The notes below the pieces were generated by a model. It saw only the letters and a program-made list of their open reading frames with translations. It was not told where the DNA came from and ran no database searches. From Sthenelais limicola (Eukaryota > Annelida > Polychaeta > Phyllodocida > Sigalionidae), in assembly GCA_942159475.1 (NCBI GenBank), contig OW804094.1:21495067-21559066 (forward strand): DNA of 64,000 nt. The letters run 5' to 3'. The translations under genes were made by a program, and so were the position numbers. Shown piece by piece: positions 53,100 to 63,843 of the stretch (the first letter of the stretch is position 1; each line of letters starts with the position of its first letter).

Positions 53100-53338
53100 T
53101 GGGTCAGATTTTCAGAAAATGTACAATTGGTAGCTGTACACATTTAGTAAATTCTGCTAAATTAGGCTCCAATTTGGTCAATACTATAGGTAAATTCGAG
53201 AATATTCGGCATTGCATTGATTCTAGCAATCTGTTTGGTTAGGTTAAACTGTATTTTGAACTTTATTTTCATCTGAAATTTGGGTTATTTGAGAGGATTG
53301 GCGAAGTAGAATTGTACATTTTCTGAAAATCTGACCCA
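53100..53338 (-). mobile_element. TG-A element copy 11
   Basis: Ends TGGGTCAGATTTTCAG and CTGAAAATCTGACCCA; TA duplication. Confidence 0.85.
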
Positions 53339-53878: not shown

Positions 53879-54194
53879 TGCGCCGCATTGTTAGATGCAG
53901 AAGGCGGGATCATTAGGAAGGGAAGCAGTATCCCATAACACCCCATTATTATACCACTACGCCACCTGTCCGCCACTATATATAATCCCTTTCAATCCCT
54001 CAACCGGCCTCATTCCATTTCCAATCACTTACGAGTCAACAGCTACCTCTAACTATATTTTTGGGTATTTGGTCACCGGTGGATACCAGTCGCACCAGCA
54101 GCGCTGGGAAAGATTCAGGCGACCTATATAATACTGCTGGCTTTGCTGTCGTGCTATATCAGTTTGTACACTATATACGCACATCGGCTTCACA

Positions 54195-55325
54195 ATGGGT
54201 AGAGGTAACACTTCTAGAAAGACTCCGAAGACGAAGGCCCCGGCCACTAAAGCAAGTACCGGTACACGCCTTACAATGCATGCATTGGATGAAAGGATTA
54301 ATACTGTGGGCACCGAGATTGCCGGTGTCAAAGACGACGTGCATATGCTCCATTCTAAAATTGATACGCTCATCGCCACATCATTGAGACAGACCGCAAA
54401 TGAGAATTTGCAACAGAGCCATGTACATCCAGCCCAGAATTCACCGCCGGGGAGCTCAGGTCCGAGCCCCGAGGCACCCAGGCCTCCACGCCATAGCAGC
54501 CCCAGGCGCCATGCCGAGCACCTGCACCTCCATGACCGGTTCGCCGCACCTGAGGTGCTTAGGAAGCGCCTAGAGGCAGACGACTACTATGAGCGGGAGG
54601 CAGAAAGGGAGAAATTCGCTAGAGGACTATATGGTAAGGCCCATGTCATGCAAAATTTTCATGCTGCCAGTATAACCGCTAAACCATTCATGTACATTGA
54701 CAATGAGACCGAACGCACAGTGAAACAAAAGATAGACGCTAGAAATAATATGTCGCAAATGCAATACATAAATGCCTGCCTTGCTCTTTTACAAGATAAC
54801 CGTGCATATAAACCTAGAGACTATTCACATATCATGTCCCATGTAATGGATGTCACGCAGGACGCACTAGAGCGCCCTTGGCACCAGGTGAGACGCTGGT
54901 CTCAATATGTGTGGGATCAGGTAGAAGCGGGCCTACTTACCTGGGACGACCAAATGCGCATTTACCAGCACAGAGTGCGCATATCTTTTACAAATGGCGG
55001 CAACGCCGGCTCCAGTAAGAATGACAGGGTAGACACAAATTGTTCTAGTGCTAGCAACAGTCAAACGGAGGTATTGTGTTGTATGTTTAATAATGCACAG
55101 AAAATTGCCTGCTCGCATAATGATACTCATAGTGAAAATGGAATAAAGTTCATGCACATTTGCTCCTATTGTGACAGCGTAGGGAAGTCCTGCCAACATG
55201 CCTTCTCCAAATGTATAAGAAGGCAAAATGCTACTAATCAATCTAAAGTGTCAAATTCCAGCTACAACAGCGGCCAGCCCTCTGGTCAACGGAGCCAAGG
55301 ACAGCAGCTCTCAAAAAACGGGTAG
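54195..55325 (+). CDS. Retrotransposon gag-like ORF
   Basis: 376 codons uninterrupted. N-terminal basic Lys/Thr stretch, a coiled-coil-like part (HALDERINTVGTEIAGVKDD), a Pro/His/Arg-rich linker, a conserved-looking alpha-helical core (YKPRDYSHIMSHVMDVTQDA, WHQVRRWSQYVWDQVEAGLL), and a Cys/His cluster (CSYCDSVGKSCQHAFSKC) that could be a zinc knuckle variant. Ends Q-Q-L-S-K-N-G-stop, with the shift site in the K-N codons. Base composition is richer in GC than the surroundings. Confidence 0.65.
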   Translation: MGRGNTSRKTPKTKAPATKASTGTRLTMHALDERINTVGTEIAGVKDDVHMLHSKIDTLIATSLRQTANENLQQSHVHPAQNSPPGSSGPSPEAPRPPRHSSPRRHAEHLHLHDRFAAPEVLRKRLEADDYYEREAEREKFARGLYGKAHVMQNFHAASITAKPFMYIDNETERTVKQKIDARNNMSQMQYINACLALLQDNRAYKPRDYSHIMSHVMDVTQDALERPWHQVRRWSQYVWDQVEAGLLTWDDQMRIYQHRVRISFTNGGNAGSSKNDRVDTNCSSASNSQTEVLCCMFNNAQKIACSHNDTHSENGIKFMHICSYCDSVGKSCQHAFSKCIRRQNATNQSKVSNSSYNSGQPSGQRSQGQQLSKNG

Positions 55326-56668: not shown

Positions 56669-59600
56669 ATATATTATATACCCGATTTTGTTTGGTGTGG
56701 AATAAAACCGCTAGAATAGTTTCAAGAATGCCAAAATGTATTTAAAATAGAAAAATTTAATCCCAAAGACCATAATGGACAACTATAATATGGATTATCA
56801 GAAATTCCAAAATTCCGAAATTACATATTATTTCAGTTACAATTCAATCTAACCCTCTAATTTGATATGTTGGTTCATGGACTATCAAAGATTCTGTAGA
56901 ATGAAGGCTAACATCAATTCAATGACATTGTATTGGATGTCCTTGAGTCAGATTTTCAGAAAATGTACAATTCGCCTTCACCAATCCTCTCAAATAACTC
57001 ACATTTAAGATAGAAATGAGCTTCAAAATGCAGTTTAACGTGGCAAAACAGATAATATAAATCAACGTGATACCAAATATATTCTATATTCAGATATACC
57101 CGTATTTATCATTTTTTCAGCCTAATTCAGCAAGATTTCCTAAATGTGTAGAGCTGCCAATTGCACATTTTCTGAAAATCTGACCCACTTACTGCACATT
57201 CTCGGCTGGCATCACACGTCTGTATACACGAGGATCTAGAATGAGACCCAGTGAGGAATATTCCCCCCTTCTGCTGATATCCAACACTCATTGAAGAATA
57301 ACCCTGAGGATGACCCGGCTTGTGTATTCCTACATTAATATAAGATTAAATAAACTAAAACCATTTGTCACTACCGGCAATTACTGATTTTTAATTGGAT
57401 TGGTTTAAAATAATGCCAGTCCTATATTAGATCCGGAGACAAATGTGATCCGTTTTAGGATAATTAGTCATAAGTCGCAAAATATGGATTTTGAGATATT
57501 CCCATATTTGAAAAGAGGAGATCAAGCTGATTCCAATGAGAGTAAACACTAGGACACCTGATATGTATTTCTATATTTTAAGTTTGATATTTCTATATTT
57601 TGCAAAAAATAAGTTTACAATGTTTCTGGATGGGTAATTACCAGTAAAGTATCTAAATATACTCCATATGAAGGCCTTCAAAACGCAAGGATATATTTAA
57701 TACAATATCCTGAACTTTGTTACATAGATTCATATGATAGTCATAGATTCATATGACTATAAGTGCTACACCCTCCAAGGATCAGAACATTTGAATAAAG
57801 AAATCTTGTGAATAAAACACTTTGAAAAATATCAATTTTGCGACTTGTGACTCATTTCCCTGAAACACATCCCAAATGTACCAATGAATTACATACCGCA
57901 GTCCTTTTTCCTGCAATGTGTTGTGGTCGGCAACGGAACAAGGGTGTTACAAGCTGATGAGCTTGAATGGAACCAGCAAATAGCTCCTTCGTAGTCATAA
58001 TCAATACCCTGAATAAATTGATTCATGATCATCATTCAGGCATAAATGTTGGCAACTATATATTTCCGACTGTCTACTGAAAAGAGGCTATATCACACTA
58101 GTTCACAAAATTAATGATAGCTATGCGCCTGGTTTCGAACTGGAGTCAAATTTAAGTCTAATCCACAGTTGAACATTTACCTGTTATCTGTCGAAAGAAA
58201 ACAATCCTCGTAAATGTCTATAAATACAGATAATTTCATTCAATGTCAATGTCAATTTAAGAACAATGGATTTTGAATTTTCCTCCATGGAGGTTAGAGA
58301 CAAATTGAATAGTATGGAAAGCCATTTATACATGTTATGAATTAACCCCAAACCGGGAGAATTAGTAGGCTAACCCGGAAAATGACTGACGATTTCACCA
58401 TTGAAAATGCATGTGAACGGGGGAATTTCGTTCCGGGTTAGCCTAGAATTAGAAACCAAATCGGAAACTTCCTAAAATTCCCAAATTGTGCTTTTTAATA
58501 TTTAGCTAATCTTCCCTTTCCATCATTTCTACTTAGACTTCATCAATTCCTGACTGGGGCATAGCTTTTGTTAATTCACTCCAATCTGGCATCTAATTCT
58601 CTAGACACCCTGCTACTTCAAAAAAACACTAGGCCTACCTAGTAGGCACATTCCGGATTGGCCGCCGAGCTGTGCCAATTTTCCCGAAATAGGATGCCAG
58701 TTCACTGAGAAAAAGGCTAATCAGGAATATGGTTAGGTAAATTAGGAAAAGTATTACTAAAGTTCTGTACATTTGGGTTATATGTATAAATGGCTTTCCA
58801 TAGTATGGCGTGGATGGATCTCAACAACACTTCGATATTGACGTATATGGAGCAGCTTATCCCATCATCAGATTTTTCATTGATGGAAATTGTTTATATA
58901 ATGTAACGATGAATGATGTAAAACTCACAACTTTTATCCTAACTTTTATCCTGGTTACATGACTGTTGACAGGAAATAATATGACGCGTTTCTGTCTTAT
59001 ACCTATAAGCACCACTCACATGGTAACCCGGAAAACAGGAGTCAAACCAAGCATCTGCACCTTTAAAAACATAATTTTTCTGTAATGCATCTCACTCTTC
59101 AGCAAAATATATCCCCTTTCTTTTTGGCAATGTCAATATGGAAAAGCAATGAGAAAAAAGAAGAAACTAGGAAAAAATACATTACCAGCATCCCCATGAC
59201 ATGTTGTCTTCATAAAATGGTCAGTCCATTGTTGCTCTTCTAAATGGGTTTGGTGCAGTTCATCAAAGTAATAACAACTACCCGACGAGAAATCCACTGC
59301 TCTATTAGTGAAAACAAGAAATAACTCGTGAAAAATCTGCGTTAGAATATATTATACAGACTTATGAATGCATTAAAACCGATTAACCGTTTAGGATTTT
59401 TAAACCTTGATATACCCCACAGATTGTATACCTTTACTCCGCACTCGTTTAATTATTCAAACATTTTCTTAATAATTACTTTATTATGCTAATTATAACT
59501 TCAGCCTGTGATACCAAAGAAAAATCTATTGTTATGTTACATGATATAATATTCTTGAAAAAAGAATTATCTATTATATTCTGGAGAAAGTTCAATGAAG

Positions 59601-62600
59601 ATGGGGAACTATAGGTAAAGTGAAATCAGACATGGATACTCTGTGACTCAACGGACCTGTTTTTATTTTATACTAATTTTAGTATTTTTATCTTATATCC
59701 AAAATTAAAAACAAAATTAAAAATGTTCTTAAGGAATATACTGGTCGAATAGACAATGCACTGAGTAGTTCGCGCACATGACACCAGATGGCGTATGTGT
59801 ACTACATCCAGAAATTGTTAATTTGTTGATTTCTCGCCAGGTGGTGATACTGTAATGTCATTTATTTTTTACTGACGCTCACTAAACTGCAATGATTTTG
59901 AATTCCTTAATGTTAAATTATGAACTTGAACGATTTTTGTATACATGATAACTTTTATTTATTTTTTCATGATATGCTGAGAATTATTATCTGTAAATGA
60001 TGAAATGCTATCAATAAAAATACAATACAATACCTAAACTAATTATAATATTATTAATTATCATTATCATTCAGTAAATTGATATCAATATCATATTTCA
60101 AAACTCCTTATTTCTCTAACACCTGTCATTGTATAATCATTCATGTGAAGTAACACCTAATAAATCAGTCTTAAGGTGGGATCCCACTGGCTCGCTTGTA
60201 TCTGTGCTCATGGCTCGCTCTTGCTGCGCTTGTTTATAGTGTGCTTGTCATTCGCTCTAGGTCCGCTTTTATTTTTAGCGCAAGACGAGCGCAGAGCGAT
60301 TCTACTGTTCCGCTTCTTTCCTTATGAAATCAATGGTAAATCACTTTGTGCGCTCACACTGCGCTCTTAGACCGCTTCTTTAACAGGTAGAAAGAGCGTT
60401 GTGTTGCTGCGCTCATATCAAACACAACAGATATGAGCGCAACGTCCTGCGCTCTCCCAAAGAAGCGCACAGAAGAGCGTATAGAAAGCGTAATTACCGA
60501 ATTTATTAGACCGCTCTGGTTTCGCTCTCACTTCGCTTGTTAGGCGCTCTGGGAAAATAAAAGAGCGGATGAAGAGCGGTCCAAAAGAGCGAGCCAGTGG
60601 AATCGCAGCCTATAGGTGGGGTCCCACTGGATCGCTTGTATCTGCGCTCATTGCTCGCTCTTGCTGCACTTGTTTATAGTGTGCTTGTCATTCGCTCTTC
60701 ATCCGCTAATATTTTGAGCGCAATACAAGTGCAGAGAGATTCTACTGGGATTCTACTGGTGCACTTCTTTCCCATATGAAATCAATAGCAAATGCGTTTG
60801 TGCGCTCTCCCTACACTCTTGGTCCGCTACTTTAACAGGTAGAAAGAGCGTTGTGTTGCTGCGCTCAAATCAAACACAGCAGATATGAGCGCAACGTCCT
60901 GCGCTCTTCTACAGAAGCGCAAATAGGCACTTTTTAGAGCGTACAGATAGCGCAGTAACCGATTCCATTAGACCGCTCTGGTTTTGCTCAATCTTCGCTT
61001 GTTATGCGCTCAAGATAATAAAAAAGAGCGGGCTATGAGCGGTCTAAAAGATCGAGCCAGTGGAATCACAGCCTTAGTCTGTACATCACTCAGAAGTTGG
61101 ACTCATCTTTATCATCTCTCTATTTTTTTGGGGAGTATATAATATACCAGAACTAACACTCTTATATATATATAAGAATGTCCTATTCACCTACAATAGC
61201 TGTGGCCAAGACAGAATTTCTTACAATCGTCCTCCGTATTGATATTAGTTGGTACAAGGACACCACCTGCACTATGTTGACCTTCAAACTTCAGGAAGGG
61301 CCCAGGACATCCTAGATGTAATACATAAATGATTATAATTATAATTATCCACAGCATTCTAGTATGAATGGTATGAAGGCATTTACAGCTACAATTTACA
61401 GTTATAATATGGGATTTGCATAGCCGCCATTTTGAATCTTGATTCGCATGGAATGATGGGACTAATGGTACAGTCTAAAATCTATAGAAAACATATCGTA
61501 TTGAGCATGGAATATCAATGGTCTAATGTCAATATCCATGTGTTATACATGTTTCTTAATGCAAGTCCCCACCTTTCCCATCATGCATTTGTTTTTCATA
61601 GATGATTTATACAAGCTATGATATCGGTGCAAACATTCTTGCAATTTTCGAGAAAATCCATCCCAGCATGCAATGCAGTAGACATCCCCTATTATAGGGG
61701 TTAAGTTGAAATTTGAATTTATAAGTACTTACCCTCATCTGGAATATGCATTGTAGGAGGAGTTGTGCTCCGAAAATGAGTCACTCGCGGTTGGTTTGTG
61801 AAGGGGTTGTGTGTGGGGGCCATGGTTTGTGGAGGTAGTGTGGGAGCAGCTCGTGGTGGCAACGTGGCTGCTGCAACTGCAGCTAATGTTGCAGTTGCCT
61901 GTGCAACTGTCTGGGGGGCCTGTGTTGCATCACCTGGGTCAGATTTGTACAAGAAAATGTACAATTGGCAGCTCTACACATTTAGGGAATTCTGCCAAAT
62001 TAGGCTGGCAAATGATGAATACCAGGTATATTTGGTATCACATTGATTTAAATATCAGTTCTGTTATGTTAAACGGCATTTTGAAGCTGATTTTTGTCTT
62101 AAAGAGATAAACCACTGTCATATGCACTGCTGCAGGCGGGAGTTCAAGGAACTAATGCATGAAAAATAAGGAGTGACAATAATTTTTACAAACTTTGTCT
62201 TGAGAAAGACCATGGTTGGGGGATAACAAAAAGCAAAACAAAATGGATCTCAGCATATTTTTTTTTCATTCTAGAGACCATCAAAGTTTAGTATTTAAGT
62301 ATGTGGGGAAAATGGATATTTTCTCAGTTTTTCCAAGATTTCAGACAAACAAATAACATTTTTCAGTTGAAATGACTTCTAAACATAGCCACTATACAGG
62401 TTTACCCTCATGCATGAAAGAACAGGGTATCAACATATTTTGAAAGATATTATTCAGCATTGAAAATCTTCAATATTCCTGTTTTTAACTCATCTGGATG
62501 CAGATTCAGTTGAAAAACTTTTTTAAAAAGTCGGTGACCCCCATTTTTTATTGCTTGAGAGGGTAAAGGAATTTGTTAGCTATGCCTATAAAGATTTTTA

Positions 62601-63843
62601 GGAAAATATTATTTTCAATTATTTTATTATACTGAAAAAACGAAAAAAAATTGTCCTTTTCTCATAGACTTCTATAGTGAACAACCATAAATTTCAGGGC
62701 TCCCTGAATTGAAATTAACCCGGTGACATATTGTTTTTATTGGCATTTTGAATTCACATAACCTTGTTCTTTCATGAGGCAAAGTTTAAACAAAATGTTA
62801 TTTTCAGTTTTTTTCCCAGTTGAACTGTGGTTTATCTCTTTAAATATGTGATCCGTTTTAGGAAAATGAGTCATAAGTCGCAAAATATGGATTTTGAGAT
62901 ATCCCCATATTTGAAAAGATGAGATCAAGCCGATTCCAATGATAGTAAACAGTCTAATAATCTAATAAGTATTTCTAGATTTTAAGTTTGATATTTTCCT
63001 TTTTCAATAAAACAGTTTCCAATATTTCTGGGGGTCAATAAACAGTAAAGTAACTAAATGCAGTCCATATGAGGACCTTTAAAACGAAAGGATATATTAC
63101 ATAGATTGTCCTGAAATGTGATACATCGATTGATATAGCTATGACTGATAAACCCTAAAAAATATAGAACATTCCAAAAAATGTGATCTTGTGAAAATAA
63201 AAACTTTGAAAAATATCAATTTTGCGACTTATGACTCATTTTCCTGAAACACATCACATATGGGCTATTTGAGAGGATTAGTGAAGACGAATTGTACATT
63301 TTCTGAAAAATTGACCCACCTGCTGGGATGACTTCTGGTAGTTCAGGAACTTCATCGCTCTCGGTGTCTGCGTCACCTGTTCACAAGATTTTTGATTAAT
63401 TGTCTGTGAGGAGTGACTCAAAAAATTGTCCCTCCAATTACTTGCATAAATATATGCCTTAAACCATGATTTTTGTTTTGTTCAGTAATAACTATGTCGA
63501 CAATACTTACAATCGGTACGTCGTACCACACATGGTGTGTCCTGAAAGAATTTTATTCCATGACCTCCATGCCCTCCTCCATGTCCTCCCCCATGTCCTC
63601 CTCCATGCCCATGGGCCAACGCATTTAAAATTCCGTTCAGGTTAATTCCATTGTCACATAAATTGGCAAAATCTGTAGGCACACCCAGGTCGTCGGGGCA
63701 CACTGCCCTTGTTACAGTAAACATTGGCTTCCACCATGGATTAGGGGTTTCAGAAGAATACACACAAATTGCATATTGGCACAGTCTCTCTGTATCTGTA
63801 GCGGCGTCCACATCACAAACAATCTGGCCAGGCTTTGTACACC
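56432..63843 (-). CDS. Secreted-type protein with Gly-His tract and PAN/apple-like modules (partial, 5' end off right edge)
   Basis: Exons (5' to 3'): 63843-63511, 63376-63320, 61933-61733, 61311-61191, 59301-59186, 59060-59020, 58008-57897, 57329-57193, 56578-56432. Splice phases are consistent. Order of regions: a Cys-rich module (GCTKPGQIVCDVDAATDTE, six Cys in ~55 residues); a Gly-His tract; a short acidic piece; a 66-residue Ala/Thr/Pro linker; then Cys-rich PAN/apple-like modules. Module 1 has DDCKKFCLGHSYCRAVDFSS + GSCYYF; module 2 has GIDYDYEGAICWF; module 3 has SSCIQTCDASRECA + AVDYKIDDGTCWH, i.e. the PAN pattern C-x3-C-x4-C-xAVDY...C. Such modules bind proteins or sugars outside the cell. 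No membrane segment is seen. I do not recognise an orthologue. The module-2 first exon is uncertain (see findings). Confidence 0.7.
56612..56676. repeat. TA microsatellite
   Basis: About 65 bp of TA repeats with two small breaks, 33 bp upstream of the acceptor of PAN-gene exon i. Confidence 0.95.
56944..57187 (+). mobile_element. TG-A element abutting a PAN-gene donor site
   Basis: Ends TGAGTCAGATTTTCAG and CTGAAAATCTGACCCA; CT duplication. In the gene's sense the element starts five bases after the exon h boundary (GTAAG|TGGGTCAG). Confidence 0.85.
57193..57329 (-). CDS. PAN-gene exon h: PAN module 3, first half
   Basis: 137 nt. Encodes GIHKPGHPQGYSSMSVGYQQ and SSCIQTCDASRECA. Acceptor AATGTAG. 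In the donor GTAAGT the first five bases are host sequence and the sixth is the first base of a TG-A element. Confidence 0.75.
57444..57874 (+). mobile_element. TG-B element copy 9
   Basis: Ends TGTGATCCGTTTTAGG and CCTGAAACACATCCCA; AA duplication. Ends 22 bp before the donor of PAN-gene exon g. Confidence 0.85.
57897..58008 (-). CDS. PAN-gene exon g: PAN module 2, second half
   Basis: 112 nt. Encodes GIDYDYEGAICWFHSSSSAC and TTTHCRKKDC, parallel to exon i. Acceptor TTTATTCAG, donor GTATGT. Confidence 0.75.
59020..59060 (-). CDS. PAN-gene exon f: PAN module 2, first half (boundary uncertain)
   Basis: 41 nt if the strong donor CAT|GTGAGT is used, encoding ADAWFDSCFPGYH in the right phase for exon g. 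The frame stays open past this donor as VSGAYRYKTETRHIISCQQS + CNQDKS, which looks like the missing Cys pair of the module, but then meets TAG at about 58945. Confidence 0.5.
59186..59301 (-). CDS. PAN-gene exon e: PAN module 1, second half
   Basis: 116 nt. Encodes AVDFSSGSCYYFDELHQTHL and KTTCHGDAG. Acceptor CACTAATAG, donor GTAATG. Confidence 0.75.
60175..60612. mobile_element. GCGCTC-rich foldback, copy 1
   Basis: Ends GGTGGGATCCCACTGGCTCG and CGAGCCAGTGGAATCGCAGCC. The interior is full of GCGCTC/GAGCGC motifs in both orientations. ORFs across it are artefacts. Confidence 0.8.
60615..61074. mobile_element. GCGCTC-rich foldback, copy 2 (tandem)
   Basis: Begins GGTGGGGTCCCACTGGATCG, ends GAGCCAGTGGAATCACAGCC. 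Same family and orientation as copy 1, 2-3 bp away. Confidence 0.8.
61191..61311 (-). CDS. PAN-gene exon d: PAN module 1, first half
   Basis: 121 nt. Encodes GCPGPFLKFEGQHSAGGVL and TEDDCKKFCLGHSYC, the opening of a PAN/apple-like fold. Acceptor CATCTAG, donor GTGAAT. Confidence 0.75.
61409..61700. repeat. Dispersed repeat G, copy 2
   Basis: Same block order as 51693-52045, ending GACATCCCCTATTATAG. Lies between PAN-gene exons c and d. Confidence 0.7.
61733..61933 (-). CDS. PAN-gene exon c: Ala/Thr/Pro linker
   Basis: 201 nt. Encodes GDATQAPQTVAQATATLAAV, PPRAAPTLPPQTMAPTHNP and TTPPTMHIPDE, a likely O-glycosylated stalk. Acceptor CTGACCCAG is the end of the same TG-A element; donor GTAAGT. 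Confidence 0.7.
62100..62845. mobile_element. Foldback-C element nested in TG-A
   Basis: Inverted ends AAAGAGATAAACCAC and GTGGTTTATCTCTTT. No coding capacity seen. Inserted into the TG-A copy that forms the intron. Confidence 0.7.
62847..63258 (+). mobile_element. TG-B element copy 10, nested inside the intron TG-A
   Basis: Ends TGTGATCCGTTTTAGG and CCTGAAACACATCACA; TA duplication. Confidence 0.85.
63320..63376 (-). CDS. PAN-gene exon b: short acidic exon
   Basis: 57 nt. Encodes CDADTESDEVPELPEVIPAG across its junctions. Acceptor GTGAACAG; its donor G|GTGGGTCA is made by one base of target duplication plus the end of a TG-A element. Confidence 0.65.
63511..63843 (-). CDS. PAN-gene exon a: Cys-rich module plus Gly-His tract
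   Basis: 333 nt, phase 1 in, phase 1 out. Encodes GCTKPGQIVCDVDAATDTER, CQYAICVYSSETPNPWWKP, then HGHGGGHGGGHGGGHGGHG, then FFQDTPCVVRRTD. Acceptor ATGTTTCAG, donor GTAAGT. A TG-B copy lies 24 bp upstream of the acceptor. Confidence 0.75.

Follow-up and report, generated by a model that had tools for sequence, protein, structure and literature searches.

In the annelid Sthenelais limicola, the insertion of a transposon of the TG-A family into a coding exon, accompanied by duplication of the dinucleotide GG, very probably gave the inserted sequence the form of an intron, the splicing of which is predicted. The site is located in the window, namely the whole 64,000-nucleotide stretch of contig OW804094.1 that was analysed, and belongs to a gene that lies on the minus strand and extends across the window's right end. 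The intron between exons b and c (61934..63319, minus strand; 1386 bp), which is absent from both paralogues of the gene, is constructed of one G, a TG-A element carrying two later inserts, and another G. On the minus strand, exon b ends with GCAG and the intron starts with GTGGGTCA, while the intron ends with TGACCCAG and exon c starts with GTGATG; these borders and element ends, which had been described in the initial annotation, are present in the sequence. Alignment to other TG-A copies divides the founding element into a 5' part that starts with TGGGTCA (63261..63318, minus strand) and a 3' part that ends with TGACCCA (61935..62103, minus strand), and both intron ends align to the TG-A inverted repeat of ~29 bp. 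GG is found on each side of the element, the borders read GT...AG and the phase-1 frame is intact, while reading through the intron leads to an in-frame stop soon past exon b.

The exons of the host gene, all on the minus strand, were delimited as follows. Exon a (63511..63843) was recognised by its open frame and by splice-site letters with phase 1 borders, and displays 91.6-95.2% DNA identity to the two paralogues. Exon b (63320..63376) comprises 57 bp and is joined without a break to exon c in the two paralogues, whereas exon c (61733..61933), which also has an open frame, shows 93.5-96.0% DNA identity to them. Exon d (61191..61311) constitutes the first half of a PAN domain, the second half of which is the stretch 59300-59199 (PAN_1 E 7.7e-7 for the two together, above its cut-off). 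When exons a, b, c and d are joined with exon e0, which lies beyond the window (L009), the translation is one open frame with every junction in phase 1, and the frame that had been claimed to stay intact after removal of the element plus one duplication is thus open over five exons. Farther downstream, the exon pair g/h gives PAN_1 E 0.0014, below the cut-off, and in the weaker pair f/f2 the stretch 58008-57904 resembles exon h, the second PAN-like half (E 0.008). The GC content of exon b is 54% but its GC3 only 39%, a pattern like that of exons a, c and d. A protein database search with 310 aa of the host gene gave no match at E <= 0.1 among 8000 candidates that were scored.

The absence of the intron from orthologous loci of related species had been proposed as a check, and this comparison was run on paralogues within the same genome instead. 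A protein search of the genome (1.13 Gb) revealed two paralogues of the host gene, on C6 and C9, with 77-95% identity per exon, and in both of them exons b and c form a single uninterrupted exon (L032 and L033). At the insertion site the C9 paralogue reads CCAGCAGGTGATGC, which is exactly the predicted empty site, and its stretch CCAGCAGGTGATGCAACACAGG equals the window sequence once the element and a single GG are taken out; the C6 paralogue reads CCAGCAGATGTTGCAACACAGG at the same site. Both copies are empty, that on C9 letter-perfectly. Moreover, the introns between exons a and b and between exons c and d are kept in both paralogues, which speaks against loss of the intron via reverse transcription.

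The founding element was afterwards split by two other repeats, the ends of which are approximate. The foldback-C insert (62845..63260, minus strand) has matches of 85-89% elsewhere in the window, and the TG-B insert (62105..62843, minus strand), recognised by comparison with composite copies, occupies a TTAA of TG-A. At four further loci (L002-L005), TG-B interrupts TG-A at the same point, and foldback-C is absent from these composites. Among the four, the similarity is 96.6-99.0% in the TG-B parts but only 82.6-88.8% in the TG-A parts, from which it follows that TG-B inserts independently at one and the same TTAA of TG-A copies that are already old; the order that had been claimed, TG-A first and the inserts of TG-B and foldback-C later, is supported by the same figures. 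The four composites had also suggested that TG-A and TG-B move as one unit of ~980 bp, which was ruled out by these two ranges. TG-B hence seems to be a TTAA-targeting element that picks one spot of another repeat over and over. Among the copies aligned, the TG-A of the intron is closest (92.4%) to L007, a copy of ~227 bp that has no TG-B, and the size of the founder, previously given as ~240 bp, is corrected to about 230 bp. As a side observation, foldback-C is an element of ~415 bp with inverted ends, of which roughly ten copies or pieces occur in the window (e.g. at 36 kb-38 kb, 6.7-7.2 kb and 62.8-63.3 kb).

TG-A is abundant in the window and in the genome. The motif TGGGTCA occurs 21 times in the window, against 8.3 expected, and none of 100 shuffles reached 21; by our own count the window holds 15 other copies or fragments of TG-A, which agrees with the number reported at first. 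AGG followed by the 29-bp TG-A end, with <=3 mismatches, was found 49,112 times on the forward and 49,111 times on the reverse strand of the 1.13-Gb genome, with 0 for the control, and 52 of the matches in the genome are exact. The perfect TG-A inverted repeat was searched for in viral contigs and gave 0 matches. Among 20 stretches chosen by position, 12 have no TG-A, while one 10-kb stretch chosen in that manner (L027; C5:25000001-25010000) harbors nine near-full copies, which indicates that TG-A is strongly clustered.

The target duplication was determined on 40 near-full-length copies from the window and the sampled stretches, 34 of which have intact ends. The 2-bp flanks match in 24 of these 34 and the 3-bp flanks in none, so TG-A duplicates 2 bp. 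With its terminal inverted repeats TGGGTCA...TGACCCA of ~29 bp and this duplication, TG-A is a MITE, i.e. a short (~230 bp), non-autonomous, inverted-repeat DNA transposon. The 24 matched duplications consist of TA (10), TG/CA (7), TT/AA (4), TC/GA (2) and CT/AG (1), and GG, which was looked for among them, was found in 0. Accordingly, of the GG target duplication that had been claimed for the intron, the 2-bp length is typical of the family, but the dinucleotide itself is a rare one. A bare match of 2-bp flanks, for which the chance is 1 in 16, is weak alone, and it is the empty sites of the paralogues that, at the level of sequence, prove the duplication of GG. The outer neighbours of the element are TA or CA on the left in 16 of 23 cases and TA or TG on the right in 18 of 23, and the pattern YR-NN-YR is present at 13 of the 23 sites, compared with 1 in 16 by even chance.

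In the mechanism proposed here, TG-A would have inserted at CAG^GTG inside exon b+c of the window copy, which lies on C1, with duplication of GG. One duplicated G together with the first T of TG-A would then create the donor GT (CAG|GTGGGT), which fits the general donor consensus, while the last A of TG-A and the other duplicated G would create the acceptor AG (CCCAG|G). Splicing out G+TG-A+G would restore the original mRNA letter for letter, so that the inserted sequence could have functioned as an intron immediately and in either orientation; since the ends of TG-A are inverted repeats, orientation should not matter, but only the duplication on the coding strand. The subsequent insertions of TG-B and foldback-C would have lengthened the intron to 1386 bp. 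We infer that the GT...AG sites of the window intron are used by the spliceosome and that a transposase provided in trans mobilised TG-A. A TG-A copy at 53100-53338, likewise framed by two Gs, has stops in every frame, which means that the protein would normally be disrupted if the element were retained. The acceptor side of TG-A reads TTTTCT...CTGACCCAG, and at two loci, L057 and L069, the right end of the element is pyrimidine-rich (84% vs 63% in the common form), which may represent a subfamily with a better acceptor or a later improvement.

A search for further introns with TG-A at both ends had also been suggested, and three with support from homology were found among 74 sites chosen for AGG or CAGG at the edge of TG-A, 38 of which have GG on both sides. 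Fifty-six of the 74 were read as 600-bp loci, comprising all 52 exact matches and 4 one-mismatch matches from those listed; the right end of TG-A was located in 51 of them with <=6 errors allowed, and the 5 without it were dropped. GG stands on both sides in 19 of these 51 loci, and one more (L075) has it on the other strand. In addition, a gap pattern that pairs CAGG at one edge with GGT at the opposite edge yielded 23 sites, 18 of them new, and two 130-bp flanks were read per new site. Homology across the joined flanks was observed at only 2 of the 38 GG/GG sites.

The first of these two is an intron of an axonemal dynein heavy chain (L069, C8:12219056-12219655; GG/GG, phase 0), where the element lies between SDACLALLQ and VPILVRHPEK. 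The joined flanks match Pfam DHC_N1 with E 3.5e-25, the junction is ungapped in the 3 PDB alignments listed of ten matches, and a contiguous match of 43%, containing one stop, exists elsewhere in the genome. The second (L112/L113, C5:18365041-18365284; GG/GG, phase 2) places the element inside the CxxCxC motif of a VWC domain, for which Pfam VWC gives E 3.6e-5 and 24.4 bits, below the 27.6 cut-off; its best PDB match is von Willebrand factor (E 0.0047), and a 57% match on C4 runs through the site uninterrupted. The third case (L048, C3:33099717-33100316, site C3:33099866; phase 1) carries GG to the left of the element and GA to its right, and belongs to a family without a Pfam match, as the search of its peptide against Pfam gave no family. 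Paralogues of 88, 87 and 74% contain this peptide without interruption, and the two paralogues read at the DNA level have GCAGATACACC at the site, which is thereby empty with GA. The duplication was probably GA originally, the left copy now being GG, and a change from GA to GG makes the GT donor, so that a rescue of the donor by one mutation is possible. The only PDB matches of the peptide were designed repeat proteins, which were taken as noise. Six other candidates (L120/L121, with an 85-aa open frame, L042, L046, L049, L059 and L096) were without convincing homology and were left out of the count.

Four TG-A introns are therefore at hand, that of the window gene and L048 in phase 1, the dynein intron in phase 0 and the VWC intron in phase 2. 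They are similar introns at non-homologous places, with a similarity that is bounded by the splice sites, and absence from close relatives was found in the C6 and C9 copies and in two paralogues of L048; for the dynein and VWC cases the contiguous matches are only more distant ones, of 43% and 57%. On these comparisons, TG-A shows the behaviour of an animal introner family.

Several other explanations of the window intron were weighed. It is unlikely that the copy on C1 is a decaying gene in which TG-A sits unspliced in a dead exon. The dN/dS among the three copies is 0.63-0.68, i.e. weak purifying selection, which would agree with decay, and an intact frame is not improbable under substitutions alone; in a simulation of 12-36 random substitutions, the probability of staying free of stops was 36-69%, and the frame by itself is therefore weak proof of a working copy. 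Decay is nevertheless opposed by the facts that all five joined exons are open, that the splice-site letters are in place and that a like arrangement is seen in the dynein heavy chain. It is also opposed by the lengths of the joined exons a-d, open in all three copies, which differ by 24 and 3 bp, all multiples of 3. The C6 matches of the protein search contain one TAA, in the e0 match, and one TGA, outside the joined exons a-d; the latter, when joined, translate without a stop.

Very unlikely, too, is the idea that exon b is no exon, and that TG-A landed on the CAG|G acceptor of an old a-c intron and duplicated it before exon c. The two paralogues have b and c as a single open exon, preceded by the kept acceptor AACAG|GTGAC, and the gaps of 9, 6 and 3 bp in an exon b that is open in all three copies support it as coding, as does its GC3 pattern. 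What lends this idea some credit is that a join of exon a to exon c is also in frame, that the empty site contains CAG|G, and that exon b is short and fast-evolving, 3.7% of all 57-bp stretches in the window being equally GC-rich and free of stops in that frame. Exon b shows an identity of just 75-80% among the copies, compared with 90-96% for the neighbouring introns a-b and c-d, and is for this reason regarded as a fast-evolving linker. A corresponding event may have occurred at L078 (C9:39181023-39181622), where a GG/GG TG-A stands apparently directly before an amidase exon (Pfam E 6.1e-11 for the matching stretch) and may have landed on an existing 3' splice site, taking over the acceptor while keeping its function. 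Discarding exon b nonetheless fails to explain the dynein, VWC and L048 cases. Finally, that the TG-A insertion is older than the gene duplications and was precisely lost from the other copies is most improbable, because, although C6 and C9 are closer to each other upstream of exon a (96.8%, against 72-74% for either to the window copy, over a short region, part of which is repeat in the window), a precise loss would be required while the flanking introns remain, and the intron would still originate from a TG-A insertion.

Insertion of TG-A into an exon thus remains the preferred reading, and it can be set beside several known systems. Exon insertions of maize Ds/dSpm and C. elegans Tc1 are removed by the spliceosome, often leaving residues or using nearby cryptic sites, whereas the removal of TG-A would be letter-perfect. 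TG-A shares with MITEs its short length, the lack of coding sequence, the long inverted repeats and the very high copy number. According to the available portion of PMC9860276, DNA-transposon introners resemble TG-A in that many similar elements are present per genome, some of them being exactly introns at unrelated places, and in their inverted repeats, target duplication and splice sites common to element and duplication. The same portion describes varied modes of such splice-site sharing and quotes duplications of 3-9 bp for earlier introner families, from which TG-A differs by its shorter duplication of 2 bp, by splice sites that are both half element and half duplication, by copies that, as read, lie mostly outside recognisable coding sequence, and by its animal host, with which the PAN, VWC and axonemal dynein genes and the size of the genome agree. 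As far as the accessible part of PMC7789003 goes, the introner elements of Amoebophrya likewise form introns that end in inverted repeats and are bordered on the exon side by short direct repeats, but their splice sites are mostly non-canonical and the direct repeats measure 3-5 nt, in contrast with the GT...AG borders and 2 bp of TG-A. In the open-licence literature on introners, no description of a TG-A-like family was recognised, which is no proof of absence.

The origin of spliceosomal introns is a long-standing question, and clear recent intron gains that can be compared with an empty site are rare in animals; PMC9860276, in the part available, reports introners from only two animal groups in a large survey. 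Here a single genome contains the site with the insert along with two empty ones, the founding family and further cases, which makes the mechanism directly testable, in particular how TG...CA ends and a 2-bp duplication together form donor and acceptor, and whether an unsuitable duplication (GA) is mended by a single mutation. On balance we favour the view that TG-A is a high-copy animal introner that may account for many introns (tens or more). Its favoured target YR-NN-YR, combined with a GG duplication, would correspond to CAGGTR, the proto-splice site itself, and would give a ready GT...AG in either orientation and any phase, other duplications being rescuable by one point mutation, as at L048.

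Another TG-A copy in the same host gene (window 56944-57187, minus strand; duplication AG) starts 5 bp past a likely donor GCA|GTAAG, so that the sixth base of the donor is the first T of the element. This copy was rejected as the founder of its intron, since the PAN-like exon pairs d/e, g/h and f/f2 appear to be interrupted at roughly one common position within the domain and the intron that holds it accordingly looks older. Nearby, a 397-aa open frame on the plus strand (window 54132-55325) resembles, by eye, part of a retroelement.
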